Below, one piece after another: positions 1,104 through 43,617 of a DNA stretch of 52,920 nt. The position numbers were made by a program, and so were the translations under genes. This stretch comes from an uncultured Clostridia bacterium (GTDB lineage Bacteria; Bacillota; Clostridia; Monoglobales; Monoglobaceae), in contig CANQQJ010000026.1 of assembly GCA_947625905.1 (NCBI GenBank), forward strand, positions 1 to 52,920, given 5' to 3'. Under the pieces are notes generated by a model, which saw only the letters and a program-made list of their open reading frames with translations, was not told the origin of the DNA and made no database searches. The first letter of the stretch is position 1. Each line of letters starts with the position of its first letter.

Positions 1104-1189
1104 ATCGTGACCTCCTTATGATATCATATTTTTGAATTTTTGTAAACTGTATTTATGTTTTAAGTATACAAGCAAATAAGTGTCGTGGA

Positions 1190-1492
1190 ATGCCAAGAAG
1201 GATTTTTCAAGATTTGACACGATATAGTTATCAAAATCGGAGTTGTGAGTGCGTGCAGAGCAACTCATATTCATTATGCTGCAAGTGGTTCAGACGCGCG
1301 GTTTTACCGCAGGACAAGCCCTTGTTTGCCGAGATAATCGACAAAGGACAAGCCAAACGCTGCGTTATCTGCGGTGCGGCATTTGTGCCAAAGTCGAACA
1401 GAGGCAAATATTGCGAGAAATGTGCCAAAGCGGTTCGCAGGAAGAAAAAGGCGGAATACGAGCGCAGACGCAGACAGAGAGTGGATATTTAG
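1190..1492 (+). CDS. Zinc-ribbon protein of mobile-element type, probably 5'-degraded
   Basis: The last 60 residues are convincing. They run KPLFAEIIDKGQAKRC and continue with CVIC, a spacer containing PKSNRGKYC, and CEKCA, followed by a highly basic tail (RRKKKAEYERRRRQR). Two CxxC-type pairs indicate a small zinc ribbon. Basic zinc-ribbon proteins of this form are common cargo of clostridial conjugative elements, by recollection. The first 40 residues are less protein-like and the ATG at 1190 has no clear ribosome-binding site, so the true start may be lost. No partner gene is intact. A role in DNA binding is only inferred from the basic tail. Confidence 0.45.
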   Translation: MPRRIFQDLTRYSYQNRSCECVQSNSYSLCCKWFRRAVLPQDKPLFAEIIDKGQAKRCVICGAAFVPKSNRGKYCEKCAKAVRRKKKAEYERRRRQRVDI

Positions 1493-24100: not shown

Positions 24101-27100
24101 CCCAACTCTGTTCCGTCGAGCACCTGCGCTTCGGTGTACTCGCCGGGCGCCGGCGCGGTCGTTTCGGTCGGCTTGGGCGTTTCGTTCGGGCCGATCGTGG
24201 CTGTCGGCGTCGGAATCGCCTTATACTGCACAAATTCCTTTACACTGAGGCTGTCTCCGACGGAGCCGATCGCAAACATCAGCAGCAAGGACTGATCTCC
24301 GCCGACAACGGCATGATCAAACTCGATCACCTTCACGTAATTGCCGTCATCAAGCTGCCGATAATACGCCTCTTTTGTTCCGTCCCATTTGATTATGTAT
24401 GTGTACCATGTGTCGGAGTTAATCTTTTCTCCGTCAACTTCAAGGTTCTTGTTTCCGTTCTCCAAATAGCCCAATTGACCGTGGTTCTGGTAGAAACGTA
24501 TCCTCCTGCCCTCGCCTCTGTAGTCCAGCTGCGACGTGCCGGTGTCATTATTCCTGAATGTCACCTTGATCGCTCCGGGTTCATCCGCCTTGACCGCTAT
24601 ATTTTTCGGCATGAATCCGCCGAAGTCTGTTGTTCCGTCAGCCTTCGCGGTAACGTACATGGTCAGTCCGTTTTCGCCGTCAAGCTCGTGGCTGCCTTCT
24701 ATCTTTCCGGTTCCGGTATATCCGTCGTGCGTAAGCTCGGCAACATTCGCGCTCTCCAAAGCCTCAAGGTTTTGGTAAGAGGTAAAGTCGATGTTGTCGC
24801 CTTGCTCCGTTCCCTCAAGCACCTGCGTCTCGGTGTAAGCCGTGATCTCAGACGTGGGTGTGGGCGACGGCGCAGGCATGCCCGTAGGCGCGGTCGTTTC
24901 GGCCGGCTTGGCCGTTTCATTCGGGCCTATCGTGGGAGTAGGCTCGGGAACAGCTTTGTACTGAACAAATTCCTTTACGCTCAGGCTGTCTCCAACCTTT
25001 GTGCTCGAGCAGAACATCAGCAGCAAGGACTGATCTCCGCCGACAACAGCATGATCAAATTCGATTGCTTTCACATAATTGCCGTCATCAAGTCTGCGAT
25101 AGTACGCCTCTTTGGTTCCGTCCCATTTGATTATGTACGTGTACCATGCGCCCGAATCAATTGTTTCACCCGGAATCGTCAAGTGCTGATTTCCGTTCGT
25201 CAGATAGCCCAGCAGACCGTTACCCTGCCAGAAACGTATCCTCCTGCCCTCGCCTCTGTAGTCCAGCTGCGGTGTGCCGGTATCATTATTCTTAAATGTA
25301 ACCTTGATCGCTCCGGGTTCATCCGCTTTGACCGCTATGTTTTTCGACATAAATCCCGCGGCGTCCGTTCCGCCTTCGTCTTTCGCGGTGACATACATGG
25401 TCAGTCCGTTCTCGCCGTCAAGCTCGTGGCTGCCTTCTATCTTTCCGGTTCCGGTATATCCGTCGTGCGTAAGCTCTACCGCGCCCGCGCTCTCCAAAGC
25501 TTCAAGGCTTTGGTAAGAGGTAAAGTCGATGTTGTCGCCTTTCTCTGTTCCCTCGAGCACCTGATCTTCGGTATACGTCGGAACCTCGGGAGTCGGTGTC
25601 GGCGACGGTTCGGGCGTGCCCGTAGACTCGGGTTCGACAGTCGGCGTTTCCGTCGGTTCCGAAACAACGTAACCGACCGTAATATCGCTTACTGTCATCT
25701 TTGTTGTACCGCCGTAAAATCCGAGCTGTGTGCTTCCGTCGGCTCCGTTTTGGTCCATTCCGGCGCCTTCTTTCAGCAAGGTCCAGTTTCTTTGACCCAA
25801 ATCGCGGCGGTAGCAGTCATAGGTCCCGTCTCCCTTGAGTTTTACCAGATACTCATATTCTTTATTAACATCGGTCGTGATTGTCGCTCTGCCGAACGCC
25901 TCTCCCGAGCCGAAAGTAACTCTATCCAGATATTGAGTTATATACAATCTGCTTTTGTTAAAATGGAAAATATAACAGCTGCCGTTGACATTAGCCGATT
26001 CAGTCATTTTGGCTTTAAAGTATATCTGATACGGCTTGGTTATATCTCCTTCAAAATTCAGAAACGCGCGAGAGCTCGGCGGAATATTCACAACACCGCT
26101 TTCGGGATCAAAGGTCGCTTGGGTGCCGTCCATATTCCAATTGCTTTCCGTGCCGCTGTACTCTTTGTCCACGACATTGGTCAAAGTCGGGTCGTATATA
26201 TGATCGTCCGTAGGCTCGGGTTCGAGTGTCTCCTCGGGCTCGGGCGAAGGCGCCTCCGTAGGAGCGAATGTTTCGGCCGGGTCGATCGTGGGCGTCGGCT
26301 CGAGAACAGCCTTGTACTGTACAAACTCCTTTACGCTGGTGCTGTCTCCCACAGCGGTGCCCGCGCACATCAGCCGTAATAAGGATTGTACACCGAAAGC
26401 ACCCATATTAAATTCTTTCACTTTTACATAATTGTCATCTTGCTTCCGATAGTATGTCTCTTTTGTTCCGTCCCACTTAATTATGTACGTGTACCATGTG
26501 TCGGAATTAATCGTTTCTCCGGGAATCGTAGAGTGACTTCCATCAAAATAGCCCAATAAGCTATTATGCCAGAAGCGGATCCTCTTGCTTTCGCCTCTAA
26601 AGTCCAGCTGCAACGTACCGGATTTTTCATTTTTAAATGTCACCTTCATTGCTCCGGATTCATTGCCCTTTACCACTATGTTTTTCGGCATAAATCCCGC
26701 GGCGTCCGTTGTTCCGTCAGCCTTCGCGGTAACGTACATGGTCAGTCCGTTTTCACTGTCAAGCTCGTGGCTGCCTTCTATCTTTCCGGTTCCGTTATAT
26801 CCGTCATGGGTAAGCTCGGCTGCATTCGCGCTCTCCAAAGCTTCAAGGCTTTGGTATGAGGTAAAGTCGATGTTGTCGCCTTGCTCCGTTCCCTCAAGCA
26901 CCTGCGTCTCGGTGTATGTTTCAACTGTCGGCGTGGGTGTCGGCGACGGTTCGGGCGTGCCCGTAGACTCGGGTTCGACAGTCGGCGTTTCCGTCGGTTC
27001 CGAAACAACGTAACCGACCGTAATATCGCTTACTGTCATCTTTGTTGTACCGCCGTAAAATCCGAGCTGTGTGCTTCCGTCGGCTCCGTTTTGGTCCATT

Positions 27101-29049
27101 CCGGCGCCTTCTTTCAGCAAGGTCCAGTTTCTTTGACCCAAATCGCGGCGGTAGCAGTCATAGGTCCCGTCTCCCTTGAGTTTTACCAGATACTCATATT
27201 CTTTATTAACATCGGTCGTGATTGTCGCTCTGCCGAACGCCTCTCCCGAGCCGAAAGTAACTCTATCCAGATATTGAGTTATATACAATCTGCTTTTGTT
27301 AAAATGGAAAATATAACAGCTGCCGTTGACATTAGCCGATTCAGTCATTTTGGCTTTAAAGTATATCTGATACGGCTTGGTTATATCTCCTTCAAAATTC
27401 AGAAACGCGCGAGAGCTCGGCGGAATATTCACAACACCGCTTTCGGGATCAAAGGTCGCTTGGGTGCCGTCCATATTCCAATTGCTTTCCGTGCCGCTGT
27501 ACTCTTTGTCCACGACATTGGTCAAAGTCGGGTCGTATATATGATCGTCCGTAGGCTCGGGTTCGAGTGTCTCCATAGGCTCCGGCGAAGGCGCCTCCGT
27601 AGATTCGGGCATAATAGTCGCTGTTTCAGTCGGTTCGGGCACGATGCTTGGTGTCTCAGCAGGCTCGGGCACGGTGGTCGGCGTATCGGTCGGCTCGGGC
27701 GTGTCGGTGGGCGCTTCTGTAGGCTCGGGCTCGGCGTCGCCGAGCGTCAGATCTCTTACGGTCATTATTGATTCGCCGCCGTAAAAACCGAGCTCTGTGC
27801 CGGAATTGTTCTCCATTCCGGCGCCTTTTATCAGCATCGTCCAATTTGCCTCTCCCGGACCGCGGCGATAACAGTTATAGGTATCGTCTCCCGCGAGTTT
27901 GATCAGATATTCATATTCCGTATCGACAGCGGTCGCGATTTTCGCTCTGCCATATGCCTCACCGGAACCGAAAGTAACTCGATCAAGATATTGAGTTATA
28001 TACATTCTTTTATTGTTAATAATGAAAATATAAGAGCTGCCGTTGAGGCCTCCGGTCATTTTAGATTTAAAGTATATCTGATACGGAGCGGCCGGATCTG
28101 CATTAAACTTCAGTTTCGCATTTTGGGATTTAGGAACGGTAATAACGCCATCATTTAACGTTACGCTGTCAACCGACATAGTCCAATTGCTTTTATCATT
28201 CCTATAAACGGCATCTACAACGTTTGTCAGTTTTTTATTATATACTTGTGCGTCCGTAAACGCCTGACTCTTTCTTTTATACTGTACCAATTCCTTTACA
28301 CTGGTGCTGTCATTCGGAGTTGCACTCGCGCTCTGCAACTGTAATGATGATTGATTTCCGCCGGAAACATAAAAAAGAAATTCCTTCACTTTCACATAAT
28401 TGCCGTTATCAAGCTTTCGATAGTACACCTCATTCTTTCCGTCCCACCTTATTATGTATGTGTACCAAGTGTTAGGGCTAATTATTTCATTTGTATCATG
28501 CAAATGTTGGTTTCCATCTTTCAAATAACCCAACTCGCCGTTGGGATCCTGCCAGAAACGGATCCTCTTGCCCGCATTTCTGTAGTTAAGCTGCAATGTG
28601 CCGGTGTTACTATTCTTAAATGTAACCTTTATCGCACCCGTGTCATCCGAATTTGTCGCGATATTATTCGAGTTAAGGTTGAATAAGCCTTCGTCATAAT
28701 TCGAACTGCCCGAAGCTGATTTTGTTTTCAAAGTCAGTCCGTTAATTGTATCAACTTCAAAGCTGTCGGAATCTTCTCCCGTTACGCTTGTGTTGCTGTG
28801 GGTGAAAGTTCCGATTTGTTTCAAGCTCTCGATCGTTGTATTCTCGGCGGCAAAATTGATATTATTGGATTCCTCCATACCGTAGAAAATATCTTCCTCG
28901 CTGTACTCACCGGGCTCGGCGGCTGCCTGCGCCTCATTTGCCGCGTCCGCTTCGGGGGAAGCCGCCTCGACCGCCGATACCGGGATTTGGAAGACCGACA
29001 CCAGCATGGCAAACGCCAATAAAAAACTTAACTTCTTCATGCTTCTCAT
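21163..29049 (-). CDS. Giant modular cell-surface protein with nine beta modules and three SLH domains
   Basis: The protein has 2628 residues. The start is taken at ATG 29047-29049 (MRSMKKLSFLLAF) because AAAGGAG lies 11 bases upstream. A GTG 12 bases earlier overlaps that site. A signal peptide is followed by two kinds of beta-sandwich module of about 170-205 residues in the order B-A-A-B-A-B-B-B-A. Type B carries GDNIDFTSYQ, ELTHDGY and WYTYIIKWDGTKEAYYR. Type A carries PYQIYFKAKM, YITQYLDRVTFGSGEA and YDCYRR. Modules are joined by linkers rich in Thr, Pro and Glu. They look like LamG/concanavalin-type carbohydrate-binding folds. Then come a helical region (about 2230-2390), a Gly/Ser-rich stretch (near 2390-2430) and three SLH domains to the end. 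It is probably a wall-anchored glycan-binding scaffold. Confidence 0.85.
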   Translation of the reverse strand: MRSMKKLSFLLAFAMLVSVFQIPVSAVEAASPEADAANEAQAAAEPGEYSEEDIFYGMEESNNINFAAENTTIESLKQIGTFTHSNTSVTGEDSDSFEVDTINGLTLKTKSASGSSNYDEGLFNLNSNNIATNSDDTGAIKVTFKNSNTGTLQLNYRNAGKRIRFWQDPNGELGYLKDGNQHLHDTNEIISPNTWYTYIIRWDGKNEVYYRKLDNGNYVKVKEFLFYVSGGNQSSLQLQSASATPNDSTSVKELVQYKRKSQAFTDAQVYNKKLTNVVDAVYRNDKSNWTMSVDSVTLNDGVITVPKSQNAKLKFNADPAAPYQIYFKSKMTGGLNGSSYIFIINNKRMYITQYLDRVTFGSGEAYGRAKIATAVDTEYEYLIKLAGDDTYNCYRRGPGEANWTMLIKGAGMENNSGTELGFYGGESIMTVRDLTLGDAEPEPTEAPTDTPEPTDTPTTVPEPAETPSIVPEPTETATIMPESTEAPSPEPMETLEPEPTDDHIYDPTLTNVVDKEYSGTESNWNMDGTQATFDPESGVVNIPPSSRAFLNFEGDITKPYQIYFKAKMTESANVNGSCYIFHFNKSRLYITQYLDRVTFGSGEAFGRATITTDVNKEYEYLVKLKGDGTYDCYRRDLGQRNWTLLKEGAGMDQNGADGSTQLGFYGGTTKMTVSDITVGYVVSEPTETPTVEPESTGTPEPSPTPTPTVETYTETQVLEGTEQGDNIDFTSYQSLEALESANAAELTHDGYNGTGKIEGSHELDSENGLTMYVTAKADGTTDAAGFMPKNIVVKGNESGAMKVTFKNEKSGTLQLDFRGESKRIRFWHNSLLGYFDGSHSTIPGETINSDTWYTYIIKWDGTKETYYRKQDDNYVKVKEFNMGAFGVQSLLRLMCAGTAVGDSTSVKEFVQYKAVLEPTPTIDPAETFAPTEAPSPEPEETLEPEPTDDHIYDPTLTNVVDKEYSGTESNWNMDGTQATFDPESGVVNIPPSSRAFLNFEGDITKPYQIYFKAKMTESANVNGSCYIFHFNKSRLYITQYLDRVTFGSGEAFGRATITTDVNKEYEYLVKLKGDGTYDCYRRDLGQRNWTLLKEGAGMDQNGADGSTQLGFYGGTTKMTVSDITVGYVVSEPTETPTVEPESTGTPEPSPTPTPEVPTYTEDQVLEGTEKGDNIDFTSYQSLEALESAGAVELTHDGYTGTGKIEGSHELDGENGLTMYVTAKDEGGTDAAGFMSKNIAVKADEPGAIKVTFKNNDTGTPQLDYRGEGRRIRFWQGNGLLGYLTNGNQHLTIPGETIDSGAWYTYIIKWDGTKEAYYRRLDDGNYVKAIEFDHAVVGGDQSLLLMFCSSTKVGDSLSVKEFVQYKAVPEPTPTIGPNETAKPAETTAPTGMPAPSPTPTSEITAYTETQVLEGTEQGDNIDFTSYQNLEALESANVAELTHDGYTGTGKIEGSHELDGENGLTMYVTAKADGTTDFGGFMPKNIAVKADEPGAIKVTFRNNDTGTSQLDYRGEGRRIRFYQNHGQLGYLENGNKNLEVDGEKINSDTWYTYIIKWDGTKEAYYRQLDDGNYVKVIEFDHAVVGGDQSLLLMFAIGSVGDSLSVKEFVQYKAIPTPTATIGPNETPKPTETTAPAPGEYTEAQVLDGTELGDDINFTKYSDIKELESADAVELTHDGYDGTGQVTGSHELDSENGLTMYITEKAGGGTDAAGFKAKNIVINAIEPGAIKVTFKNNDTGTPQLDYRGEGKRIRFWQGNGLLGYLADGNQHLTILGEKIDSGTWYTYIIKWDGTKEAYYRKLDNGNYVKVIEFDFAVVGGSQSLLQLMCTSANVGDSISVKELVQYKTASEPIATREPKPILEDESKIIAEETQTIITEDFGSRGDWEFSDSSVRVNNGILTVPTGQYAILAFPDANPNIPYQIYYRYKVNSGGSGSAIISYLGGKRIYPTVYTDRTIFGASASCGTVEVATIPDVWYEYLCTLLGDGTYNYYRRRSGEAEWTLLLDKIPLEDFSADFKQIRIGSGSSGVEVSDLSVFVGMQIVMNEPAVSGNTINADGEIYFGTSESEYDRRATVIAAAYDKKYGYTTKVVSDGLVAAAGERTKIQKQLEMTDVDLSGSNLSVMLWDSFDTAFPMADAKMYTTPNNAAEDADYTDMTCEADYNEVRIRGFAGKVCNVAAVLTDADGNVAAVMQAPTNSRGMIDSVIAVDPYSFTEGEYTLRLAYGGQLSKTYTYTLHGDDIGYNNIDGEESFKSFIDKYGNASAKETADRLTAKAYNRFIENKNGRTFADLYEFREAVDKALYDTQMEDEILTQVNEAVRTNSWPKLEELLTRTYKDYLGIDLSMMQGVKSIKNMFMRMTGNTFTSLDELTEAYEEAATEQRQYEISSGGTGSGGGGGFGGGSGGGTGSGGRFYGSTGSGSSFAVDNTGPAANNAQDNINNAASQMKPFTDLGTVPWAQDSIKYLQQIGIVAGDGNGNFYPDNSVTREEFLKMLMESFGIKPGATDAVLLFTDIDPDEWYCGYVRAAYTLGIVKGVSEDRFGIGEPITRADMAVMVKRTLDSRNKALDKIRPSRQFNDFAEIPDYAFDSISYLYETEILNGDENNMFAPGAFTTRAEAAVVIYRLRQKLN
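25595..26233 (-). repeat. Downstream copy of an exact 639-bp internal repeat
   Basis: This stretch encodes one type A module plus its flanking Pro/Thr/Glu linkers and is, by direct line-by-line comparison, identical to 26936-27574 at a spacing of 1341 bases. The type B modules between and beside the copies have diverged. Identity at third codon positions too points to a very recent duplication or gene conversion. Confidence 0.9.
26936..27574 (-). repeat. Upstream copy of an exact 639-bp internal repeat
   Basis: Partner of 25595-26233. Beyond 27574 the copies differ within a few bases (CTCGGG against ATAGGC), and before 26936 the linkers differ. The spacing of 1341 bases equals 447 codons, so a recombination between the copies would delete or add one A+B module pair without breaking the frame. 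Confidence 0.9.
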
Positions 29050-29433
29050 TCCTATTTCCACTCCTTTGATTTCCCGGCGGCGCCGAGCATAACGCCGCCG
29101 ATTTTTTTATATTTCAGAATAATTATTTTTGATTTGATTTATTCACGAGTTTATTTGTGTGTTTATTTACGATTATAAATGTTCGACGGATAAAGTTTCA
29201 ATTATAAAATTTCGTCCGATATATTTTCTTCGATGTTTTTTCGTCTGAGTTGATCTATATTTACAGTAAAATTTGTGTCATCCGAGAATGCCCAAACCAC
29301 TTGATCTTATCATATATTATAGCATGATATTATGCTCCGCTCCATAGATTAAATGGTGAAAATATCTATATTTTTTTCCTTTCGGTTAAGTTTTTTGATG
29401 AATATGTATTATAACAATATATTTCCGCGCATA
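29050..29433. other. Intergenic region between GH127 and the giant SLH gene
   Basis: There is no gene here. A strong hairpin, CGGCGGCG (29075-29082) with CGCCGCCG (29093-29100), lies just ahead of the ribosome-binding site of the giant protein on the minus strand. Read on the plus strand it is followed by seven T and would be a terminator. A minus-strand TATAAT (29316-29321) sits inside an AGCAT-N6-ATGCT palindrome (29321-29336 on the plus strand), which may be a promoter and operator for the surface-protein genes. No good -35 is visible. The remainder is AT-rich without further structure. Confidence 0.5.
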
Positions 29434-34061: not shown

Positions 34062-34080
34062 TACGGAACACGACATACCG

Positions 34081-34106
34081 CCGCCGCGAAAAGCGGCGGA
34101 TTTTTT
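34081..34106 (+). terminator. Rho-independent terminator of the PnuC-like gene
   Basis: CCGCCGC (34081-34087), a GAAAA loop and GCGGCGG (34093-34099) are followed by A and six T. It lies about 20 bases after the stop codon. Confidence 0.88.
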
Positions 34107-34180: not shown

Positions 34181-34209
34181 TTGACAAACACCTCTACTTA
34201 TTGTAGAAT
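34181..34209 (+). promoter_or_regulatory. Promoter of the BlaI/M56 operon
   Basis: A perfect -35 TTGACA (34181-34186), a 17-base spacer and -10 TAGAAT (34204-34209) place the start of transcription near 34216. Two BlaI-type operators overlap it. Confidence 0.85.
34193..34207. promoter_or_regulatory. BlaI-type operator 1
   Basis: TCTAC-TTATT-GTAGA is a perfect 5-bp inverted repeat across the spacer and -10 box. The outer bases match operator 2, located 24 bases downstream, so both fit a BlaI/MecI dimer (core TACA-N3-TGTA). Confidence 0.7.
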
Positions 34210-34216
34210 ATGTTTA

Positions 34217-34231
34217 TCTACACAGTGTAGA
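34217..34231. promoter_or_regulatory. BlaI-type operator 2
   Basis: TCTACA-CAG-TGTAGA is a perfect 6-bp inverted repeat containing the textbook TACA-N3-TGTA BlaI/MecI core. It covers the predicted transcription start, just before AGGAGG (34235-34240). Confidence 0.82.
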
Positions 34232-34251
34232 AGTAGGAGGTATATAAAATT

Positions 34252-34605
34252 ATGAAGATTTCAGAATCGGAAATGGAGATCATGAAAATTATTTGGGACA
34301 AGGGTGAGACGGTGACGACCGCCTGCATCCTCGACAGTCTCAAAACGGAATGGAAACACACCACGGTGCTGACCTTTTTGAAGCGGCTGACCGACAAGGG
34401 CGTGCTGAAATGCGAAAGGCGCGGCAAGACCAACTTTTATTCGCCGCTGATCAGCGAAAGCGAGTACAAAAACGCGCAGACGCGGGAGTTTATGACCGAG
34501 CTTCACTCGGGCTCCGTCAAGAATTTCCTGACCGCGCTGTACGGAGAAAAACGACCCACAAAAGACGAGCTTGACGAGATAAAAGAGTGGTTCGAGGGGG
34601 TGTAG
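34252..34605 (+). CDS. BlaI/MecI/CopY-family repressor
   Basis: The protein has 117 residues. An N-terminal winged helix (about 1-75) carries ISESEMEIMKIIWDKGE, TVLTFLKRLTDKGVL and the basic wing RRGKTNFYSPL. The C-terminal dimerisation helices (about 80-117) end in ELDEIKEWFEGV. In known systems the repressor is cleaved after the partner membrane metallopeptidase senses a signal. AGGAGG lies 11 bases before the ATG. It is followed after 3 bases by the M56 gene, and both operators in its promoter indicate autoregulation. Confidence 0.95.
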   Translation: MKISESEMEIMKIIWDKGETVTTACILDSLKTEWKHTTVLTFLKRLTDKGVLKCERRGKTNFYSPLISESEYKNAQTREFMTELHSGSVKNFLTALYGEKRPTKDELDEIKEWFEGV

Positions 34606-34608
34606 CTT

Positions 34609-36252
34609 ATGACGGCTTTGCTTCACAATATTCTGATATGCACTGTCAGCGGAAGCATTATGTTCGGTTTGGGCACTCTTTTTAATTTAAGTTTCAGCAA
34701 GCGCAGCATGTCGCGGTGGTATTACGGGATAATTATTCTATCCCTAATAATGCTGCTGGTGCCGCCTGAGTTCGGCGGCTCGCTGCCGAAGCTCATAAAT
34801 ATCAGTCTGCCGGCAGAGACCGCTGCCGCGCCCGCGCCGATAAGCGGAGCAGCGGAAGGCGCGGCAAGATCGGGCTCTTCGCTCATTCAAATAATATTCA
34901 CGGTCTGGGCGGTCATAGCCTCGGCTCTGGCGGTTCGGAACATCGTGCTCTACATAAGGGCGAGCCGAACCATAAAGCGCATATCGCGGCCATGCGATAA
35001 CGCTGAGACGCTGCGAATATGCGAAAAGCTGCGCAAGGAACTCGGGGTCCGCAGTCGCGTTCGGGTCATGGTGAGCGGCGAGACGGCCTCGCCTCTGCTT
35101 TTCGGAATCTTAAGGCCCCGAATAATAATTCCCGACCGCGGCTTTGACGCCGAGAGCCTGAGGCTGATATTCGCCCATGAGCTGACCCACCTCAGGCACC
35201 GCGACCTTTTGGTAAAGCTGCTGGGAATAGCGGCGGGCTGCGTGCATTGGTTCAATCCGCTGATCTACCCTCTGCGCAGATCGCTTAACACGGTGTGCGA
35301 ACTGTGCTGCGACGAGTCGGTGCTCAAAAAGCTCAGGCTTGCCGACAACAAGGATTACGGAAGGCTGATAATCTCGGTCGTCGAGGACGGCGGCGCGGGC
35401 TACGCGGCCTACTCCACCTCTATGGCGTCGGCCAAGAGCAGCATGAAAAAGCGGCTGTCACGCATAGCGCGCTTTAAGGAGATAACGGGCGCGCTCAAGA
35501 TGATAAGCGTTTTGACCGCCGCGGCTCTGGCGGTGTGCAGCATGACGGCGTTCGGCTTCACACGGGCGGCGGAAGTCGTGCCCGAGGAGATCTCGTCGGT
35601 GTTCAGACCGCAAGGCGGCGGCACGGTCGTCAGCAGATTTTCGGCGGCTATGCGCGAAACGCCCGCTCCGACCCAGACCGAAACACCGTCGCCCGAACTC
35701 ACCGCGGGCGAAACGGAGAACGAGGCGCGGCTCCCAAACGGGCCCGAATACGCGCCGGACGATCAGCCTGTCTATGATTTGACGGGCGGGAGCGCGGAGA
35801 TCATATCCGAAGAAAACACAGAACCGCAATATGCCGAGCCCGAGACGGAGCCCGAGTATAGCGAGCCCGAAGCACAAACCGTTGTCGCGCCCGCGGTCAT
35901 CGCTCCGCCGAGCGCGCCCACCGAGGCGCCAAAAGCGGCCGAAACCGTCAAAGTTCCGGGCGTGTCGTCATACGTGATAAACCTCGAGTATGACGATTCG
36001 GGTAAAGCCGCGTCGCCGATACTTGAGGCGGCAAGCACGACAAAGCTGAGCTTTAATCTGACAAACATGATAAGCGGAGTTGAGATTTACGCGTGCGGAA
36101 AAAACGGCGAAAACGCGCGTAAAGTCTACGAAAGCGCGGACGGCTCCATAACGTCGTTCACGCTGCCCGTGACCGAGGGCGAGTGCTGCTTCGCGGTGTT
36201 CACCCGGCACGACCGCGCCCCCGGCCCGACAAACACGCTGATCATCAATTGA
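34609..36252 (+). CDS. M56 (BlaR1/MecR1-like) membrane metallopeptidase with an unusual sensor domain
   Basis: The protein has 547 residues. N-terminal membrane segments (about 5-130) precede a cytoplasmic zinc-peptidase domain with HELTH at 190-194 (H190, E191, H194) and the later ELCCDESVLKKL motif. Another membrane segment (near 298-320) is followed by a long Pro/Glu/Thr-rich extracellular linker (about 330-440). The C-terminal 105 residues (PILEAAST, YACGKNGENARKVYES, TEGECCFAVF) are not the penicillin-binding domain of BlaR1, since STYK and SxN motifs are absent. They are clearly related to the secreted protein encoded at 36738-37112. The signal sensed is therefore probably not a beta-lactam. 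It is translationally linked to the BlaI gene. Confidence 0.88.
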   Translation: MTALLHNILICTVSGSIMFGLGTLFNLSFSKRSMSRWYYGIIILSLIMLLVPPEFGGSLPKLINISLPAETAAAPAPISGAAEGAARSGSSLIQIIFTVWAVIASALAVRNIVLYIRASRTIKRISRPCDNAETLRICEKLRKELGVRSRVRVMVSGETASPLLFGILRPRIIIPDRGFDAESLRLIFAHELTHLRHRDLLVKLLGIAAGCVHWFNPLIYPLRRSLNTVCELCCDESVLKKLRLADNKDYGRLIISVVEDGGAGYAAYSTSMASAKSSMKKRLSRIARFKEITGALKMISVLTAAALAVCSMTAFGFTRAAEVVPEEISSVFRPQGGGTVVSRFSAAMRETPAPTQTETPSPELTAGETENEARLPNGPEYAPDDQPVYDLTGGSAEIISEENTEPQYAEPETEPEYSEPEAQTVVAPAVIAPPSAPTEAPKAAETVKVPGVSSYVINLEYDDSGKAASPILEAASTTKLSFNLTNMISGVEIYACGKNGENARKVYESADGSITSFTLPVTEGECCFAVFTRHDRAPGPTNTLIIN

Positions 36253-36737
36253 TTCGCGCAGCGCGCGGCGAAGCCCGCAAAACGGGCGGATAATATCCGC
36301 CCCTACGGGTGCCTATGACATATCATATCACCGCAAACGTTCAAACTCCGCCAAACCCGTAGGGGCGGCAATCTGCCGCCCGCTTAGTCCCTAGGTCCTA
36401 TTTCCTAGTCTCTATGTTGGCAGCTCCTCCCGGGAGGAGGCAGAATATAGGCGCCCCTTGGGGAGAGCCGGGACGTCGAGGGCTCATGTCCTCTTGTGTT
36501 AATAATTTGTGGCCTCGTTTATTCCTAAAATCGGAATATTGTAGTGCCACGAACCCGCTCCGCGGCTCCGGCCACAGCCGTCCCCTACGACCACATTGCG
36601 CAAAATGCCGTAGGGGCGGACGACTCGGCCTCCCGCCATTAAACCGAGCGCGGGAAATACGCGAACGATTCTTGCCAAACTGTCTCCGCGTATTCGCTAT
36701 TCGCTATTCGCTAATCTCTATGTTGGAAGGATTATAT
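36253..36737. repeat. Intergenic repeat array 1
   Basis: There is no gene here. It begins with GC-rich hairpins (GGGCGGATA-A-TATCCGCCC near 36287-36305, and GGCGGCA-ATC-TGCCGCC near 36364-36380). A block of 243 bases (36385-36627) follows that is repeated at 38876-39118 with one visible difference. The block contains the palindrome CCTCCTCCCGGGAGGAGG, a CGCCCCTTGGGGAG hairpin and the core TGTGGCCTCGTTTA...CGAACCCGCTCCGCGGCTCC. It ends with TATTCGCTATTCGCTAATC boxes leading into the ribosome-binding site of the next gene. Confidence 0.85.
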
Positions 36738-37112
36738 ATGAAAATTAAAATATTAAAAAAATTATGCGCCGCATTGCTTGCGGCAGCGGCCGCGCTTGCC
36801 TCAATGACGGCGGCGGCCGAAACGGTCACACTGCCCGCCAAGTCTGTGTATGTCGTGACATGCGCCGAGGACGGCGCAACGCCGATACTTGAAATGAGCG
36901 AAAGCAAAAGCCTTTCGGTCACATCGGTAAATCTTATAAACTCGCTGCAAATTTTCAGATGCGGAAAAAACGGAGAAGACTCCGAACCCGTCTATGAAAG
37001 CGGCGGCGATATCCGCGGGTCGTTCAAGATGAGCGTCAGGCGCGGCGAATGTTATTACTTTAAGATAGGATGCGTCGGAGGCATCGAAAATGAAAAACTT
37101 ATCATAAAATAG
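36738..37112 (+). CDS. Small secreted protein, paralogue of the M56 sensor domain
   Basis: The protein has 124 residues. The ATG at 36738 follows GGAAGG by 7 bases. Longer upstream frames run through repeat DNA and are rejected. The signal peptide is residues 1-27 (ALASMTAAAE). The mature part aligns along its length with the last 105 residues of the M56 protein: ETVTLPAKSVYVV against ETVKVPGVSSYVI, then PILEMSES against PILEAAST, CGKNGEDSEPVYES against CGKNGENARKVYES, and RRGECYYF against TEGECCFA. It could bind the same ligand outside the cell or contact the sensor. The function is unknown and I know no named family. Confidence 0.78.
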   Translation: MKIKILKKLCAALLAAAAALASMTAAAETVTLPAKSVYVVTCAEDGATPILEMSESKSLSVTSVNLINSLQIFRCGKNGEDSEPVYESGGDIRGSFKMSVRRGECYYFKIGCVGGIENEKLIIK

Positions 37113-37126
37113 GAGGACGGATTATT

Positions 37127-38818
37127 ATGAAAAAACTTAAAAAAATATTATCGGCTGTTTTATCTGCGGCGGTGGCATTGACCGCGGTCTCGGGGCTCAC
37201 GGCCTCGGCGGAGGGAAGCGTCACCGGTGCGCGGCTCAGGGAACTTGCGGAGAGCGACACTCTTGACAAAAACCCGTACGCGGCCGAGATTTTGGAACAG
37301 ACCTACACGGTGCACGGCGCCGACGTGCTTGGCTTTAGCGGCAGGATCGGCGACATTATCGACCCGAAAAAGGCCTTTGCCGCTTACGGCGACGCGTTCG
37401 ATATTACCAAGTTTTTTGAAGCCGACAACGGCGGCTCTAAAAATTTTGACGAGGCTATCGCGGCACAGCGGCTTTCATTCATCGGCAATACATCCGATAT
37501 TTCAACGGAATACTACGCCCGAACCGAGCCGACCGTGAACTCGGACGGCGCCAAATCAAACGCTGTCAGCATTTTTGTAAACACTCTTAACGGAAAACTT
37601 TACACCAACCTTAACGCAAACCAATCAATATTTATTGACGACGAAAACTACGAAAAAGCCGCCGAATTGATCAACAGCGGCAATATCGGAACGCCGATCA
37701 AGGCCTATATATTTAATTCAAGCCATGCACTGGGCGTTGAGAGCGACACGGGATGCTATATTATTTCGTTCATGAAATACGATGATCGTTACGCGTCTTA
37801 CCTTGGCAAGGATGACGGCAAAATAGAAGCCGACCGAATTTACACCGTTGATGAATATAACGCCCGAAAAATCGGCGCGGCCGATAACGAGGCAACGGCC
37901 CGCGCGCTTTTGACGCAAAAAATCCACGAGGCTGTGCCCGACATAAAAACCGCAGCCGAGCTTGACGTCGTTCTTGAAAACAACAAAACGGACGGCGACG
38001 ACAGCTTTTCAAGGTACATAGGCACCGAGCCGCAGTACAGCGACGTCACGGCAGATCAGGCGGCGGTCACGAACCAAATGAGCGACCTCGGCGTTATCAC
38101 AGGCGAAAACGGTTTGTTCAGACCCGACGACAATGTTACGCGCGCGGAGACCGCGGCCATGCTTTGCAGGCTGTTTGAGATCGAGCCCTCCGAGACAGCC
38201 GATTTTCCCGACGTGCCCACATCCCACTGGGCTGCGGGCTATATCGGAGCCTTGGCAAGCGAAGGCGTCATCAACGGATTTGAGGACGGGACCTTCCGCC
38301 CAAGCGACAGCGTGACTTATGAACAGGCAGTCAAGATGACCGAAAACCTGCTGGGCTTAACCTTTGAAAGCGATATATGGATGTACGGCGAATATCCCGT
38401 GGGAAATTTGGCCACCGCCTCTCAGCTCGGTCTGACCGACGACCTCGGCAGCTTCGACTCTGGAAGCGCCGCGTCAAGAATAGACATGGCCTGCATCCTG
38501 AGCCGCGCTTTGGATTCGGACATAATAACCAATTGCTGTTATCTGGACGAGCTCAACAACGAGATCGGGTTTTATTCATTAAACGACATCAGCCTGAGCA
38601 GTTTCAAAAACGGCGGCAAACTGACCGGCAAATGGCAGAGAAGCGATGAGGAAAAACAAAAATACGCGGACGAGATCGGAAAAGAATATATCGAAAAATG
38701 CGGCGGCGTGATCGACGAATGGAACGAAAAAACCGGCAGCGCCATGAGCAAGGAGATAACCCTCAGAAAAAACTGCACCCTCAAAAACGCCAACCCGGTC
38801 CCGAGGATAACAACGTAG
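37127..38818 (+). CDS. Secreted SLH-domain protein, paralogue 1 of 3
   Basis: The protein has 563 residues. The signal peptide (residues 1-28, ending TASAEG) is followed by an N-terminal domain of unknown fold (about 30-300, starting VTGARLRELAES). A conserved bridge SFSRYIGTEPQYSDVTADQA leads to SLH motifs (about 315-470), including NGLFRPDDNVTRAETAAMLC and FPDVPTSHWAAGYIGALASEG. The C-terminus ends PVPRITT. SLH domains attach to secondary wall polymers, so the N-terminal domain would be displayed on the surface. It starts 14 bases after the small sensor-like gene with GGAGG upstream and is likely in the same transcript. It shares signal peptide, bridge and tail with the next two genes. Confidence 0.85.
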   Translation: MKKLKKILSAVLSAAVALTAVSGLTASAEGSVTGARLRELAESDTLDKNPYAAEILEQTYTVHGADVLGFSGRIGDIIDPKKAFAAYGDAFDITKFFEADNGGSKNFDEAIAAQRLSFIGNTSDISTEYYARTEPTVNSDGAKSNAVSIFVNTLNGKLYTNLNANQSIFIDDENYEKAAELINSGNIGTPIKAYIFNSSHALGVESDTGCYIISFMKYDDRYASYLGKDDGKIEADRIYTVDEYNARKIGAADNEATARALLTQKIHEAVPDIKTAAELDVVLENNKTDGDDSFSRYIGTEPQYSDVTADQAAVTNQMSDLGVITGENGLFRPDDNVTRAETAAMLCRLFEIEPSETADFPDVPTSHWAAGYIGALASEGVINGFEDGTFRPSDSVTYEQAVKMTENLLGLTFESDIWMYGEYPVGNLATASQLGLTDDLGSFDSGSAASRIDMACILSRALDSDIITNCCYLDELNNEIGFYSLNDISLSSFKNGGKLTGKWQRSDEEKQKYADEIGKEYIEKCGGVIDEWNEKTGSAMSKEITLRKNCTLKNANPVPRITT

Positions 38819-39418
38819 GTACTGGGGAACCCCTCTCAGTCAGCTTCGCTGACAGCTCTCCCCAAGGGGCGAGCCTAGTCCCTAGGTCCTATTTCCTAGT
38901 CTCTATGTTGGCAGCTCCTCCCGGGAGGAGGCAGAATATAGGCGCCCCTTGGGGAGAGCCGGGACGTCGAGGGCTCATGTCCTCTTGTGTTAATAATTTG
39001 TGGCCTCGTTTATTCCTAAAATCGGAATATTGTAGTGCCACGAACCCGCTCCGCGGCTCCGGCCACAGCCGTCCCTTACGACCACATTGCGCAAAATGCC
39101 GTAGGGGCGGACGACTCGCATGTCCTAAATGATTTTATGATGTGTGGCCTCGTTTAATTTTCGTCAATGAAATACTTATATTAAACGAACCCGCTACGCG
39201 GCTCCGGCCGCAGCCTGCCCGTTCTAATCGCTATTTACTAATCGCTAATCACTACGTTGCCACCTCATCCGAGCGCCTTCGGCGCCCACCGTCCCCTCAA
39301 GGGGAAGGCAAATATAGGCTTCCCCTTGAGGGGAAGCTGTCAAGCGGAGCTTGACTGATGAGGTGTCCTATTCACTATTCGCTAATAACTAATCACTATG
39401 TTGAAAGGAATGATTTAT
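38819..39418. repeat. Intergenic repeat array 2
   Basis: There is no gene in these 600 bases. They hold a GTCAGC-TTC-GCTGAC hairpin (38839-38853), the 243-base block shared with array 1 (38876-39118) and a second, related core (39121-39257, GTGGCCTCGTTTAATTTTCG...CGAACCCGCTACGCGGCTCC). A 105-base element (39261-39365) is bounded by CACCTCATC/GATGAGGTG and holds a 16-bp inverted repeat TCCCCTCAAGGGGAAG. TATTCGCTAAT-type boxes follow before the next start. From 38961 to the next gene start the array is nearly identical to 41421-41880, at a constant spacing of 2460 bases. Confidence 0.88.
39261..39365. repeat. Two-armed palindromic element, copy 1
   Basis: The termini CACCTCATC (39261-39269) and GATGAGGTG (39357-39365) are perfect inverted repeats. 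Inside lie a side hairpin GCGCC-TTC-GGCGC, the central 16-bp inverted repeat TCCCCTCAAGGGGAAG/CTTCCCCTTGAGGGGA and a second side hairpin GTCAAGC-GGA-GCTTGAC (39339-39355). In the copy at 41721-41825 the second hairpin reads GTCAGAC-GTA-GTCTGAC, with both arms changed together. Confidence 0.85.
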
Positions 39419-41179
39419 ATGAAAAAAATCAAAAAATTATTATCGACAGCACTGGCCGCAGCGGTGGCATTGGCCGCGGTTTCGGGGCTCACGGTCTCGG
39501 CGGAGGGAAGCGTCACCGGCGCTCGGCTCAGAGAGTTGGCGGAGAGCCGCAGGCTTATCGACAGGCCCGACGCGGAGCAGATACTTGACTGTGAGTATAA
39601 CGAAATGCAACACTCGTTCACACTTGAGGACTTAGACAAGATGGACCCGATCACGCGCGAATATGTCTATGACATCACCGAGGAGCGGCCCGCGCCCATG
39701 AGGTTGGGAGATATGCCGGGCATCGAGACGGCGTTCGGCTGCGGATCTTCGGCGGAGGTCATTGCCGATGGGGTCGCGTCCGGCAAAAGCTTTGACGAGA
39801 TCATGAGCGAGCACGATAATCTGTACTATATCGTCACCGACGAAAAATGTTACACGCTGTTTGATCCGCCCGAAGGCCCGTACAGCGGCGCGATCACCAA
39901 AGTGATAGACGTCAATTATTACGCAGAGGGCGAGAACGGAGAACTCCGCGAAGCCGATAAATCCGAGGGCAGCCTTCGGGTCAACTGCCACGACGCCGGC
40001 CTTTTTGACTTCGGGAACGCGTATGACAAGATAGCCGACGCCCTGACCGACGCGGGCTGCAAGTCGATCGACGGCGCTTGTATCGAACCCGCTAAGGGGA
40101 TAAGCGTTTCCACCGACATCGGATGCCTGTATGTGCCCGTTCGGGACGTGAGCGGAAAAGAGGCCGAGTATATAGGTGAAAACATCGGAAACCTTAACGC
40201 TTTTGAGGCGTACAAAATAGACGACTATGTTAAATTCATGGAGATGCGCGACGAGGAGGCCGCGAAAGCGTCCGCGCTGCTCGGCGAGAAGCTGCGCGCA
40301 AAAATGCCCGGCTCCCTTGACAGCGAAAGCTATAAACTAAATACGACGTTCGGCGAGGCGACCGACTGCTTCTCGCAATACATCGGCACCGAGCCAAAGT
40401 ATTCCGACATAACCGACGGGCAGGCGGCGGTCACCAATCAGCTGACCGATATGGGGATTGTCAACGGCTCAGGCGGAATGTTTTATCCCGACAGCGATGT
40501 GACGCGCGCCGAGGCCGCGGCGATAATTTGCAGACTGCTTAATATCGAGCCGAGCATAACTGACAGATTCACCGATGTTCCCGATGACTGTTGGGCGGCG
40601 GGATATATAGGCGCGCTTTCCAAGATGGACATGATCGACGGAACAAGCGATTCGCAGTTCTCGCCGGAGGAAAGCGTGACATACGAGCAGGCGCTGAAGA
40701 TCATTATAACCATGCTGGGCTACGCGGGAAATCAAACCGACTACTGCGGCGGGTTCCCGACGGGATTTATAAAGCTCGGTCTCGATCTGGGCCTGATCGA
40801 CGACTGCGGCAGCTTTGACTCGGGAACGCCCGTATCCAGGATCCGATTCGCCTGCATGATAAGCCGCGCGCTGGACACAAGGCTTTCGACAACTACTGTC
40901 GGGATCGGCGGCATGGGCGCGCAGATCTACGAGATCGCGGACGCCACGCTTTACGGATATTTAAACGGCGCCGAGCTGAGCGGCAGTCTGCTGCGCGGCA
41001 AGGGCGAAAAAGAGGCGTTCAAAGAGCAAAAGTCCGCCGAGTACGCCGAAAAATGCGGCGATATCATCGACGAGTATAAAGAGATCACGGAGTCGCGCAA
41101 CACACTTGTAAAAGAGATAAACGGCATCTACGTCGCGCCCCTGATAAAAAGCAACCCCATTCCGAGAATAACAACGTAG
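39419..41179 (+). CDS. Secreted SLH-domain protein, paralogue 2 of 3
   Basis: The protein has 586 residues from the ATG at 39419, which has GAAAGGA 9 bases upstream. The signal peptide is nearly identical to paralogue 1 (ALAAVSGLTVSAEGSVTGAR). The N-terminal domain (about 30-310) has diverged strongly and is acidic. The bridge CFSQYIGTEPKYSDITDGQA and SLH motifs (about 325-480: NGSGGMFYPDSDVTRAEAAA, FTDVPDDCWAAGYIGALSKM) are conserved. It ends IPRITT. Divergence only in the displayed domain suggests varied binding targets on a common anchor. It is flanked by repeat arrays on both sides. Confidence 0.85.
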   Translation: MKKIKKLLSTALAAAVALAAVSGLTVSAEGSVTGARLRELAESRRLIDRPDAEQILDCEYNEMQHSFTLEDLDKMDPITREYVYDITEERPAPMRLGDMPGIETAFGCGSSAEVIADGVASGKSFDEIMSEHDNLYYIVTDEKCYTLFDPPEGPYSGAITKVIDVNYYAEGENGELREADKSEGSLRVNCHDAGLFDFGNAYDKIADALTDAGCKSIDGACIEPAKGISVSTDIGCLYVPVRDVSGKEAEYIGENIGNLNAFEAYKIDDYVKFMEMRDEEAAKASALLGEKLRAKMPGSLDSESYKLNTTFGEATDCFSQYIGTEPKYSDITDGQAAVTNQLTDMGIVNGSGGMFYPDSDVTRAEAAAIICRLLNIEPSITDRFTDVPDDCWAAGYIGALSKMDMIDGTSDSQFSPEESVTYEQALKIIITMLGYAGNQTDYCGGFPTGFIKLGLDLGLIDDCGSFDSGTPVSRIRFACMISRALDTRLSTTTVGIGGMGAQIYEIADATLYGYLNGAELSGSLLRGKGEKEAFKEQKSAEYAEKCGDIIDEYKEITESRNTLVKEINGIYVAPLIKSNPIPRITT

Positions 41180-41878
41180 GGACTAGGGAATAGGGACTAG
41201 ACCCACCTCCGTCAGGCTTCGCCTGACACCTCCTCCCGGGAGGAGGCAGAATATAGGCGCCCCCTCGGGGGAGCTGTTGCGGAGCGACTGAGGGGGTGTC
41301 CTAGTCCCTAGATCCTATTTTCTAGTCTCTATGTTGGCACCTCCTCCCGGGAGGAGGCATGGGCGGCAGATTGCCGCTACAGATTTCATCACACCGTAGG
41401 GGCGGATATTATCCGCCCGCGGGACGCCGAGGGCTCATGTCCTCTTGTGTTAATAATTTGTGGCCTCGTTTATTCCTAAAATCGGAATATTGTAGTGCAA
41501 CGAACCCGCTACGCGGCTCCGGCCACAGTCGTCCCCTACGACCATAGTACGCAAAATGCCGTAGGGGCGGACGACTCGCATGTCCTAAATGATTTTATGA
41601 TGTGTGGCCTCGTTTAATTTCCGTCAATGAAATACTTATATTAAACGAACCCGCTACGCGGCTCCGGCCGCAGCCTGCCCGTTCTAATCGCTATTTACTA
41701 ATCGCTAATCACTACGTTGCCACCTCATCCGAGCGCCTTCGGCGCCCACCTTCCCCTCAAGGGGAAGGCAAATATAGGCTTCCCCTTGAGGGGAAGCTGT
41801 CAGACGTAGTCTGACTGATGAGGTGTCCTATTCGCTATTCGCTAATTACTAATCACTACGTTGGAAGGAATGATATAT
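41180..41878. repeat. Intergenic repeat array 3
   Basis: There is no gene in these 700 bases. A full two-armed element (about 41204-41299) has GTCAGGC-TTC-GCCTGAC (41211-41227), CCTCCTCCCGGGAGGAGG and CCCCCTCGGGGG. Next is a TAGTCCCTAG/TCTATGTTGGC box (41301-41338) and another CCTCCTCCCGGGAGGAGG. A GGCGGATA-T-TATCCGCC hairpin (41401-41417) replaces part of the block seen in arrays 1 and 2. The remaining core (41421-41578), the second core (41581-41717) and a second two-armed element (41721-41825) match array 2. The order of boxes shows modular reshuffling. Confidence 0.88.
41721..41825. repeat. Two-armed palindromic element, copy 2
   Basis: It has the same layout as 39261-39365 with CACCTCATC/GATGAGGTG ends and the 16-bp central inverted repeat. 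The variable side hairpin is GTCAGAC-GTA-GTCTGAC (41799-41815). Compared with copy 1 two base pairs have changed on both arms, so pairing is kept. Confidence 0.85.
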
Positions 41879-43573
41879 ATGAAAAAACTTAAAAAATTAT
41901 TATCGGCAGCTCTTGCCGCGGCGCTCGCGTTGACAGCAATTTCGGGGATAACCGTCTCGGCGGCGGGGCGGGTGACCGCCAATGATATAAAAGAACTCGC
42001 CGAGGTTACTCTGCGCGAGGAGCCCGATTATAAGGCCATACTCGGCACGGCCTACATCCCCGAGGACGGAGACATAACAAGCACCGCGATATACGGCGAT
42101 ATTATCGACCCAAGCTCCGCGTTTTTGGTTTACTCAAGCGCGGAATGCTATACGCGTCTGATCGGAAACGGAGCCGACACGCTTTCGGAGGCAATCGGGC
42201 TTTGCGAAAACGGCGCAAACAGCGGCACGCGCTATGACAGCTCGGGCGACAGGTGCTACTATCAGCCTCTGCCGGACTATCCGAACTGCGCGGACTATCC
42301 GCAGCTTAGCGGCGCGGCGGCTTACAGGCTGCGCATAAGAGACGGCGAGCACGTTGAGCTTGCGGTGCAGCCGCTCTATAACTTCGCGGCGGAATATCAA
42401 AAAGTTGCCGACGTCATGAACGAATACGGCCTTGATAAGCCCGACGCGGTCTATCTGTTCTCGGGAAATCCGTCATTCGGCGGCCCGCTCAAATCGGCGT
42501 CCTTCGGCGTCTCGGTCGACGGCGAGGAATACATAATCCCCGTAGGCCGGGACATCAATGACAAGCAGGGCGGCGCGGGCCTTGAGGCCTATAGGCTTTA
42601 TGACATGATCGACTATAACGCGTATTTTAACACCCATCGCGCGAGCGTCGAGGATATACTCAAAACTGCGGAAAGCGAGCGCCTTGAGCGCCTGCCCGGG
42701 GTCCGCACCCGCGAGGATATCGAAGATGCAGCGAAAACCGTCGGCACAAACGACACCGACAGCTTTTCGAAATACATCGGCACCGCTCCGCACTACTCCG
42801 ACATAACCGCGGGGCAGGCGGCGGTCACCAACCAACTGACCGAGCTGGGTGTCATAAGCGGCTTTGGTGGGAAATTCTGCCCAAGCGACAATGTGACAAG
42901 AGCCGAGACCGCGGCAATGCTGTGCAGACTGTTTGATATCAAAGACGGGAACGAGGGACCGGCCGCGTTTTCGGATGTGCCGCAAGATCACTGGGCGGCG
43001 GACTGTATCGGAGCCCTCGCGCAAAAGGGTGTGATAAGCGGGCTCGGAAACGGCACGTTCGAGCCGGAGCAAAGCGTGACATACGAGCAGGTATTCAAAA
43101 TGGTCGAGCAGCTGCTGGGCTACACCGGACAGATGCTCGTGAGCTATGGCGGTACTTATCCCGAGGCCAACGTGCTGGCGGCCGTGAAGCTGGGTCTTGC
43201 GAACGACCTTAAAAGCTATGACTCGGCCGACCCGATCTCAAGGATCGAGCTGGCGTGCGTGCTGAGCCGCGCGCTCGACGCCCACACAGCGACCGTTGAG
43301 GTGTATATTGAAAACCTGACCGAGGGAGTTTATTACTACACCGACGCGACCCTGAGCGACCTTAAATGCGGCGCGGAGCCCGCCGGAAAACTGTGCGAAA
43401 GCGACAACGAGTTTTGGGAGTACACCCGGGCGCTTAAGTCGGAATACGCCGAAAAGACGCGGGACATCATCGACGCGGCGGTGTCGCAAACCGGCGGCAT
43501 GGGCATAGACCTGGGCGGCGGCATAACGATACGCGCCAACCCCAAAGCCGATATCCCCAGGATCACAAGCTGA
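41879..43573 (+). CDS. Secreted SLH-domain protein, paralogue 3 of 3
   Basis: The protein has 564 residues from the ATG at 41879 behind GGAAGGA. The signal peptide is MKKLKKLLSAALAAALALTA and on to VSAAGRV. A divergent N-terminal domain (about 30-300, several Tyr/Asp-rich strands) is followed by the bridge SFSKYIGTAPHYSDITAGQA. SLH motifs (about 310-470) include GKFCPSDNVTRAETAAMLCR and FSDVPQDHWAADCIGALAQK. It ends DIPRITS, a variant of the shared tail. A terminator follows at 43590, so this gene closes the cluster. Confidence 0.85.
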   Translation: MKKLKKLLSAALAAALALTAISGITVSAAGRVTANDIKELAEVTLREEPDYKAILGTAYIPEDGDITSTAIYGDIIDPSSAFLVYSSAECYTRLIGNGADTLSEAIGLCENGANSGTRYDSSGDRCYYQPLPDYPNCADYPQLSGAAAYRLRIRDGEHVELAVQPLYNFAAEYQKVADVMNEYGLDKPDAVYLFSGNPSFGGPLKSASFGVSVDGEEYIIPVGRDINDKQGGAGLEAYRLYDMIDYNAYFNTHRASVEDILKTAESERLERLPGVRTREDIEDAAKTVGTNDTDSFSKYIGTAPHYSDITAGQAAVTNQLTELGVISGFGGKFCPSDNVTRAETAAMLCRLFDIKDGNEGPAAFSDVPQDHWAADCIGALAQKGVISGLGNGTFEPEQSVTYEQVFKMVEQLLGYTGQMLVSYGGTYPEANVLAAVKLGLANDLKSYDSADPISRIELACVLSRALDAHTATVEVYIENLTEGVYYYTDATLSDLKCGAEPAGKLCESDNEFWEYTRALKSEYAEKTRDIIDAAVSQTGGMGIDLGGGITIRANPKADIPRITS

Positions 43574-43589
43574 AAAAGTTATTAATAAC

Positions 43590-43617
43590 GGCGGAGCCTC
43601 GGCTCCGCCTTGTTTTT
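43590..43617 (+). terminator. Rho-independent terminator of the SLH cluster
   Basis: GGCGGAGC (43590-43597), a CTCG tetraloop and GCTCCGCC (43602-43609) are followed by TTGTTTTT. It lies 16 bases after the stop of paralogue 3. Confidence 0.9.

Follow-up and report, generated by a model that had tools for sequence, protein, structure and literature searches.

The closest described systems are BlaR1/BlaI-BlaZ and MecR1/MecI-PBP2a. According to the available excerpts of PMC9834060 and PMC7593790, the engaged BlaR1 sensor domain leads to an active protease and to cutting of BlaI; the sensor resembles a class D beta-lactamase, and beta-lactamase is the product that removes the signal. The excerpts of PMC9834060 also define the M56 motifs as HExxH and ExxxD and place the cleavage of S. 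aureus BlaI at N101-F102. Another parallel is RsgI of C. thermocellum, which carries modules (CBM3, GH10) of kinds present in secreted cellulosome proteins, some of them RsgI-controlled (PMC4711584, in excerpt). Here we describe a locus on contig C26 of an uncultured Clostridia bacterium (Monoglobaceae, related to Monoglobus; genome 2.96 Mb), where a BlaI-type repressor and an M56 metallopeptidase precede a gene for an exported copy of the peptidase's own C-terminal domain, termed domain A, and three genes for SLH surface proteins. The whole stretch of DNA analysed, 52,920 nt, is referred to as the window.

The locus shares with the bla and mec systems a BlaI partner, an M56 protein with HExxH and ExxxD, an N-F dipeptide near the cleavage place and a C-terminal extracellular sensor; the relation of the sensor to a class of exported proteins is a further likeness to BlaR1 (PMC7593790 and PMC9834060, in excerpt). 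It departs from BlaR1 and MecR1 in its tail, a non-penicillin domain of 103 aa, in a free copy that is nearly a bare domain and no known enzyme, and in having genes for SLH surface proteins next to it; nor is the NCBIfam cut-off for BlaR1 reached. As in the sigma-I/RsgI systems, a membrane regulator bears an extracellular module that is also found in secreted proteins (PMC4711584, in excerpt). However, the regulator here carries M56 and its partner is a PF03965 BlaI, whereas RsgI is an anti-sigma factor with SigI, and the matching modules there sit in multi-domain cellulosome proteins rather than being encoded alone next to the sensor. Non-penicillin tails also occur on other M56 proteins (DUF4825, Peptidase_M23 and Cu_amine_oxidN1 among others), which likewise combine BlaI with assorted extracellular tails, but 77 of the 80 sampled outside the order have no free copy in their own locus. 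An earlier sequence-only reading of the window knew of no description of such a pairing, and none was found among the listed titles and abstract openings of the open-access literature searched.

We interpret the locus as a putative BlaR1/BlaI-type unit with domain A as the sensor, whose operon yields an exported copy of the sensor together with SLH proteins, the tail and the copy sharing a target in a negative feedback circuit. In our judgement this interpretation has an even chance of being correct.

Organization of the locus

Six plus-strand genes lie across positions 34181-43609 and are bracketed by two terminator-like hairpins. The features are as follows.

34078..34099, plus strand: intrinsic-terminator-like hairpin, 3' of the upstream gene
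34181..34209, plus strand: promoter TTGACA - 17 nt - TAGAAT, 11/12 consensus matches, kept in 8/8 aligned loci
34194..34206, no strand: operator O1, CTACTTATTGTAG, spanning the spacer and the start of the -10 element
34218..34230, no strand: operator O2, CTACACAGTGTAG, identical in 8/8 aligned loci
34252..34605, plus strand: BlaI-type repressor, 117 aa, PF03965
34609..36252, plus strand: M56 (BlaR1-type) membrane metallopeptidase, 547 aa, PF05569
35581..35940, plus strand: M56 linker, P/T/E/S/A/Q-rich, residues 325-444
35941..36249, plus strand: predicted extracellular sensor domain A, M56 residues 445-547
36738..37112, plus strand: exported free copy of domain A, 124 aa, signal peptide by eye
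37127..38818, plus strand: SLH surface protein 1, 14 bp 3' of the free copy
39398..41179, plus strand: SLH surface protein 2
41861..43573, plus strand: SLH surface protein 3
43590..43609, plus strand: terminator-like hairpin, 3' of the last SLH gene

The gene order is thus BlaI, M56 with tail domain A, free copy and three SLH genes; the gap between the M56 stop and the free-copy gene is 485 bp. The M56 protein matches PF05569 with E 4e-41 (141.6 bits against a cut-off of 31) and has the zinc motifs HELTH at residue 190 and ExxxD at residue 231 (E231-D235). Its hydrophobic stretches include 91-109 and 299-317, the latter being the last, and the linker of about 120 residues (68% P/T/E/S/A/Q) leads to domain A. 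Residues 445-528 of M56 and the free copy are 40% identical over 84 aa (BLASTP, E 3e-17), with the positions ETV, PILE, CGKNGE, VYES and GEC in common. The sequence-only reading had proposed a BlaI repressor, two palindromic operators, an M56 peptidase with HELTH and a secreted protein of the same domain 485 bases downstream, and all four were confirmed. It had also described a tail of about 105 residues without penicillin-binding motifs: the lack of K[ST]G holds, whereas the domain measures 103 aa and one SxxK (STTK, residue 476) is present.

Domain A as sensor tail and as free copy

Domain A is restricted to two genes in the 2.96 Mb genome, as judged by profile and single-sequence searches (a third place has E 1.44). 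The idea of a common domain scattered across the genome was rejected, both copies being in the M56 locus. Neither the tail nor the free copy matches a Pfam family over its cut-off. Matches to GUB_WAK_bind, a plant galacturonan-binding family, were obtained for 6 of 16 members (best E 0.011; the free copy scores 14.5 bits against a cut-off of 29.4) and are treated as noise, attractive as they would be in a relative of Monoglobus, a pectin-degrading genus. PD-L1 matches of domain A in a search of PDB sequences (best E 0.5) were dismissed.

The M56 and BlaI partners and the SxxK of the tail would fit an ordinary sensor of beta-lactams or muropeptides of the BlaR1 kind. The SxxK occupies the same place in 8 of 10 aligned A tails, but it is missing in the genomes G013 and G026, no K[ST]G occurs in the aligned M56 A tails, and the domain has only 103 aa. 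The NCBIfam model blaR1_generic gives 115.7 bits against a cut-off of 400, the match being confined to residues 91-320, and Pfam finds no penicillin-binding protein or beta-lactamase match at M56. Motif, Pfam and NCBIfam evidence agree with the non-penicillin sensor proposed by the sequence-only reading and led us to reject penicillin or ordinary BlaR1 sensing; by these predictions the domain A tail is not a penicillin-binding sensor, and an ordinary BlaR1-kind function is highly improbable.

The free copy has its own start and a signal peptide; here and throughout, export was judged by eye from a signal peptide or lipobox. The ratio of nonsynonymous to synonymous substitution rates (dN/dS), each in five pairs, is 0.05-0.40 for the mature free copy (residues 28-124), 0.09-0.30 for the tail and 0.14-0.23 for the M56 core. 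The linker evolves faster than the rest (0.25-0.56 in four pairs, the fifth being undefined). These ratios indicate that the free copy is under purifying selection. The small size of the protein, the repeat-rich draft genome and the fallibility of assemblies could favour a chance likeness or a decayed M56 fragment over a real exported gene. Such a view is contradicted by the BLASTP E-value, the signal peptide and start, the purifying selection, the presence of free copies in 6 genomes and the recurrence of the pattern with other domains. Chance and pseudogene origins were rejected on the E-value, dN/dS and the 6 genomes, and their probability is negligible.

Promoter, operators and BlaI

Dyad operators over the promoter are also a feature of the bla and mec systems. 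The window contains two palindromes of the form CTACnnnnnGTAG, at 34194-34206 and 34218-34230, with 0.28 expected; 2 of 100 shuffles reach two. The operator count alone is not above chance, since the reversed pattern also occurs at two places in the genome; the operators are convincing because of their promoter position and conservation. O1 overlaps the greater part of the spacer and extends three bases into the -10 element; O2 sits just 3' of the latter. O1 retains CTAC-N5-GTAG in 8/8 aligned loci. The pattern CTACACnGTGTAG was found in 10 of 13 genomes tested, which are exactly those with an A tail, including G026 from another genus. Each of the 10 has one site just 5' of the A-tail locus, and the reversed CTACACnGTGTAG control gives 0 matches in the 13 genomes. 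Judged from sequence, these are predicted dyad operators of the kind that characterizes BlaI/MecI/CopY repressors.

Four genomes have a second CTACACnGTGTAG site; the window genome has none. In G019 (contig C2, locus L254) this site belongs to a further promoter, which has O2 along with a degenerate O1 and lies some 130 nt 5' of a lone gene for an exported SLH protein (665-1372, minus strand; SLH score 22.2 bits against a cut-off of 20.8). Because this operator-bearing promoter precedes such a gene, BlaI operator control is likely to extend to surface proteins. Single second sites are at G016:C16, G021:C3 and G022:C38.

The repressor matches PF03965 with E 1.1e-28 (100.4 bits against a cut-off of 22.6) and is below every NCBIfam cut-off for CopY, BlaI and MecI. 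N91-F92 stands at about the cleavage place of the BlaR1 pathway, and 26 residues follow N91 of this predicted site. The N-F dipeptide is kept in 8/8 BlaI proteins of A-type loci; the genome's other two BlaI proteins do not have it at this position.

Domain A in related genomes

Most genomes surveyed are drafts. Domain A was found in 9 of 51 genomes of the order, all from the same genus (9 of 12 genomes), as 9 M56 tails and 6 free copies; the loci L006-L012 are not independent of G015, G022, G018, G020, G021, G016 and G019. G014, a Monoglobus genome in a single contig (99% complete), lacks both domain A and any M56 match at E 1e-10.

A distant A tail is present on the M56 protein of G026, which belongs to another genus of the family and whose M56 is 31% identical to that of the window. 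Profile A1 missed this tail at E 0.01. The E-value of profile A4 for G026 is circular, this profile including the G026 tail; the independent test is profile A5, which lacks G026 and gives an hhalign probability of 93.8% with E 1.8e-7. A search of the class with the G026-inclusive profile found domain A in 10 of 391 genomes, namely 8 of the same family and two partial matches (E about 0.005) that were not counted.

The tail is neither an ordinary BlaR1 domain nor absent from homologous loci, both of which were looked for as findings that would speak against the sequence-only reading. That reading had also noted the neighbouring SLH proteins, and SLH genes adjoin the A locus in relatives too. 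BlaI, M56 with domain A and SLH look like an older core to which the free copy was added within Monoglobus.

M56 tails and free copies with other domains

M56/BlaI pairs are common: M56 was found in 82 of 147 sampled genomes of the class, from which 80 loci were drawn. The loci were chosen by hand among the matches listed, approximately best E-value first and with a frame long enough for a tail, and are not a random sample. BlaI is present, by set, at 58/58, 78/80 and 24/28 loci, the second set being these 80, and at 28 of 29 positive loci checked. Pfam at E <=0.001 assigns 20 families in all to the 80 tails outside the order, most often DUF4825 (13), Cu_amine_oxidN1 (6) and peptidase M23 (5); no transpeptidase or beta-lactamase family is among them at this threshold. 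The DUF4825 and M23 tails are M56 receptors fused to wall-hydrolase-like domains. Single tails match transglycosylase, SpoIIP, amidase, VanW, SLH, WG repeats and others, and many M56 tails resemble portions of exported wall or surface proteins. In locus L177 (7505-8419, minus strand) the tail consists, by eye, of SLH motifs and a further domain, and this receptor may be anchored in the S-layer.

The pairing of a tail with a free copy recurs with other domains. The window genome has three M56 genes: the one described above on C26 and two with a tail of type B, on C1 and C25. On C1, an exported free copy of B stands 3' of the M56 gene, with a WG-repeat/SLH protein after it; on C25, the B-tail M56 is accompanied by a WG-repeat protein and has no free copy. 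Domain B is FN3-like (profile A2 against tenascin-R, E 3e-5, as a PDB sequence match only). A common domain scattered across the genome was rejected for B as well, all 3 copies being in M56 loci.

Across the order, a paralogue from the same locus was found for 11 of 51 tails (A 5, B 6), all within the genus of the window. This set held 59 M56 places, of which G033:C18:110676 was excluded for three internal stops; 7 of the 58 processed tails were shorter than 40 aa. In the class-wide sample outside the order, three tails have a paralogue, those of L146, L181 and L182, and L151 was dropped from the count, its match being a neighbouring M56 (G110:C28:29767-30744) cut by the stretch end. The total is 14 of 131 tails, from five tail types. 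All 14 paralogues are 3' of M56, on the same strand and provided with a signal peptide or lipobox; phmmer gives an identical set. The cross-locus background, 30/6320 and 239/17947 pairs, contains true homologues and M56 fragments and overstates chance.

The three tails from outside the order differ from one another. L146 has a domain of about 233 aa with a lipoprotein copy, L182 has a domain whose free counterpart is a lipoprotein with two domain copies, and L181 has a BamE-like domain of about 60 aa (type C) whose secreted copy lies behind an SLH gene. Type C was followed in the family f14, where matches in 20 of 70 genomes yielded 26 M56 loci with this tail (L181 is counted both here and in the class-wide sample). 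Within the stretches fetched, a free copy with a signal peptide is present in 16 of the 26 loci, in 15 of them downstream and in some only 35-51 bp past the M56 stop. Eight of 10 tested neighbouring proteins have SLH over the cut-off. Free exported C copies with no M56 in the fetched stretch are at L238 (3483-3731, minus strand) and L239 (497-748, plus strand). As to the assignment of type C, 3 of 12 members match PF04355 at E <=0.1 (best E 0.00097; one has 16.0 bits against a cut-off of 23.2).

A single family for A and B is not supported (hhalign probability 0.65%, E 0.089). The values are 3.6% (E 0.012) for A against C, 4.0% (E 0.011) for B against C and 0.3% for A against the L146 type; the L146 and L182 types give no alignment worth noting. 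A, B and C are not demonstrably related, though as small beta-rich domains they may share a distant origin.

In the trees, tails and free copies separate, a split that is weakly supported in A (28/41) and well supported in B (96/94); the tree of domain C is poorly resolved (56 columns). The trees allow a single origin of the free copies in A and in B each. These results bear on two other interpretations. In the first, the free copy acts on the sensor, either by binding the M56 tail homotypically or by reporting export or wall passage, as an antagonist or agonist and with no shared outside ligand. In its favour, the free proteins of types A, B and C consist of little more than one small domain each, those of A and B group apart from the tails as partners might (weakly so in A), and a tail on such a linker could make contact with a soluble partner. 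Several genomes, however, keep M56 without a free copy, and the free protein of L182 has two domains; we consider action on the sensor rather unlikely. In the second, the free copy is a mere effector of the operon, a binding module that aids the SLH proteins, and its likeness to the tail is a by-product of domain capture by M56, with no feedback. The single origins allowed by the trees and the frequent resemblance of M56 tails to exported wall or surface proteins (among the 80 tails, five match M23 and one each matches transglycosylase, amidase, SpoIIP, VanW and SLH) would agree with it, but it leaves unexplained the persistent proximity of copy and M56 across many species and several different domains. 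An effector-only role is an unlikely explanation.

Proposed sensing of a shared target

In the preferred interpretation of a shared target with feedback, the tail on its flexible linker and the free copy would recognize the same extracellular target. A target left unoccupied would engage the tail, upon which the protease would open and cut BlaI, and the operon would be derepressed. The SLH proteins and the free domain would next act on the target by covering, anchoring or titrating it, and the sensor would fall silent. The shared domain is the argument for a shared target of tail and free copy, and the position of the free copy behind a BlaI-controlled promoter is the argument for feedback. 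The M56, BlaI and N-F motifs are present; the protease-activation step itself is inferred by analogy. BlaR1 would follow the same logic, its sensor being kin to an exported product that removes the signal. In favour of the interpretation are the restriction of domain A to two genes of the genome, the low dN/dS of both copies, the conserved operators and the recurrence of the pairing with five tail types and nearly always with BlaI. The sequence-only reading had suggested a wall or glycan fragment as a possible ligand, and for the secreted copy a role as ligand carrier, decoy or co-sensor; these are candidate functions.

Several observations weigh against this interpretation. Three of the 9 Monoglobus genomes with A tails lack the free copy, namely G020 (96% complete), G022 (98%) and G013 (74%), and so does G026, whose locus consists of BlaI, M56 with domain A and an SLH protein. 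Because several A-tail genomes are without a free copy, signalling does not need one. In G013:C8 (L027) a stop closes the 369-aa M56 frame, and beyond it domain A continues in-frame as a separate 189-aa frame, which is either a broken gene or an assembly fault. In the window, the scan with the operator pattern found no operator directly 5' of the free copy, and the 485-bp gap carries a dispersed repeat and weak hairpins; co-transcription of the free copy across this gap is likely. Outside the order, only 3 of 80 tails show the pairing. In f14, 10 of the 26 loci have no free copy in the fetched stretch, some of these stretches ending soon after M56; one free copy is upstream of M56, and the two copies without M56 given above add to these cases.

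Intergenic repeats and neighbouring genes

An intergenic repeat of about 250-300 bp is present in the window at 36469-36768, 38960-39259 and 41420-41719, that is, before the free copy and SLH genes 2 and 3. A locus-specific regulatory element before the free copy was rejected, parts of the repeat giving 59 matches genome-wide, as for a dispersed repeat. The mutual identity of SLH proteins 1-3 is 36-39%; the repeat copies before SLH genes 2 and 3 are 97% identical, while proteins 2 and 3 are only 36% identical. Upstream of the locus, an open reading frame of 2632 aa (21163-29061, minus strand) has similar segments repeated and, by eye, C-terminal SLH-like motifs.

Implications for M56 receptors

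The recurrence of the pairing with other domains makes it more than a local oddity. Should the sensor and its exported counterpart have a common ligand, the small soluble copy would be a ready reagent for fishing out the signal, and what most M56 tails sense would become a testable question. BlaR1 with beta-lactamase would then be an instance of a wider circuit design where receptors take over a domain from the product that their own system exports. A broader generalization, which we put forward tentatively and consider doubtful, is that self-likeness is how the whole class of M56/BlaI receptors senses: the tail would copy the domain of the system's own exported product and monitor the coverage of its target by competition, and induction of BlaR1 by penicillin would be one specialized case of a homeostatic surface or wall circuit. 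If this is true, the ligand of an orphan M56 receptor could be found through its free copy.

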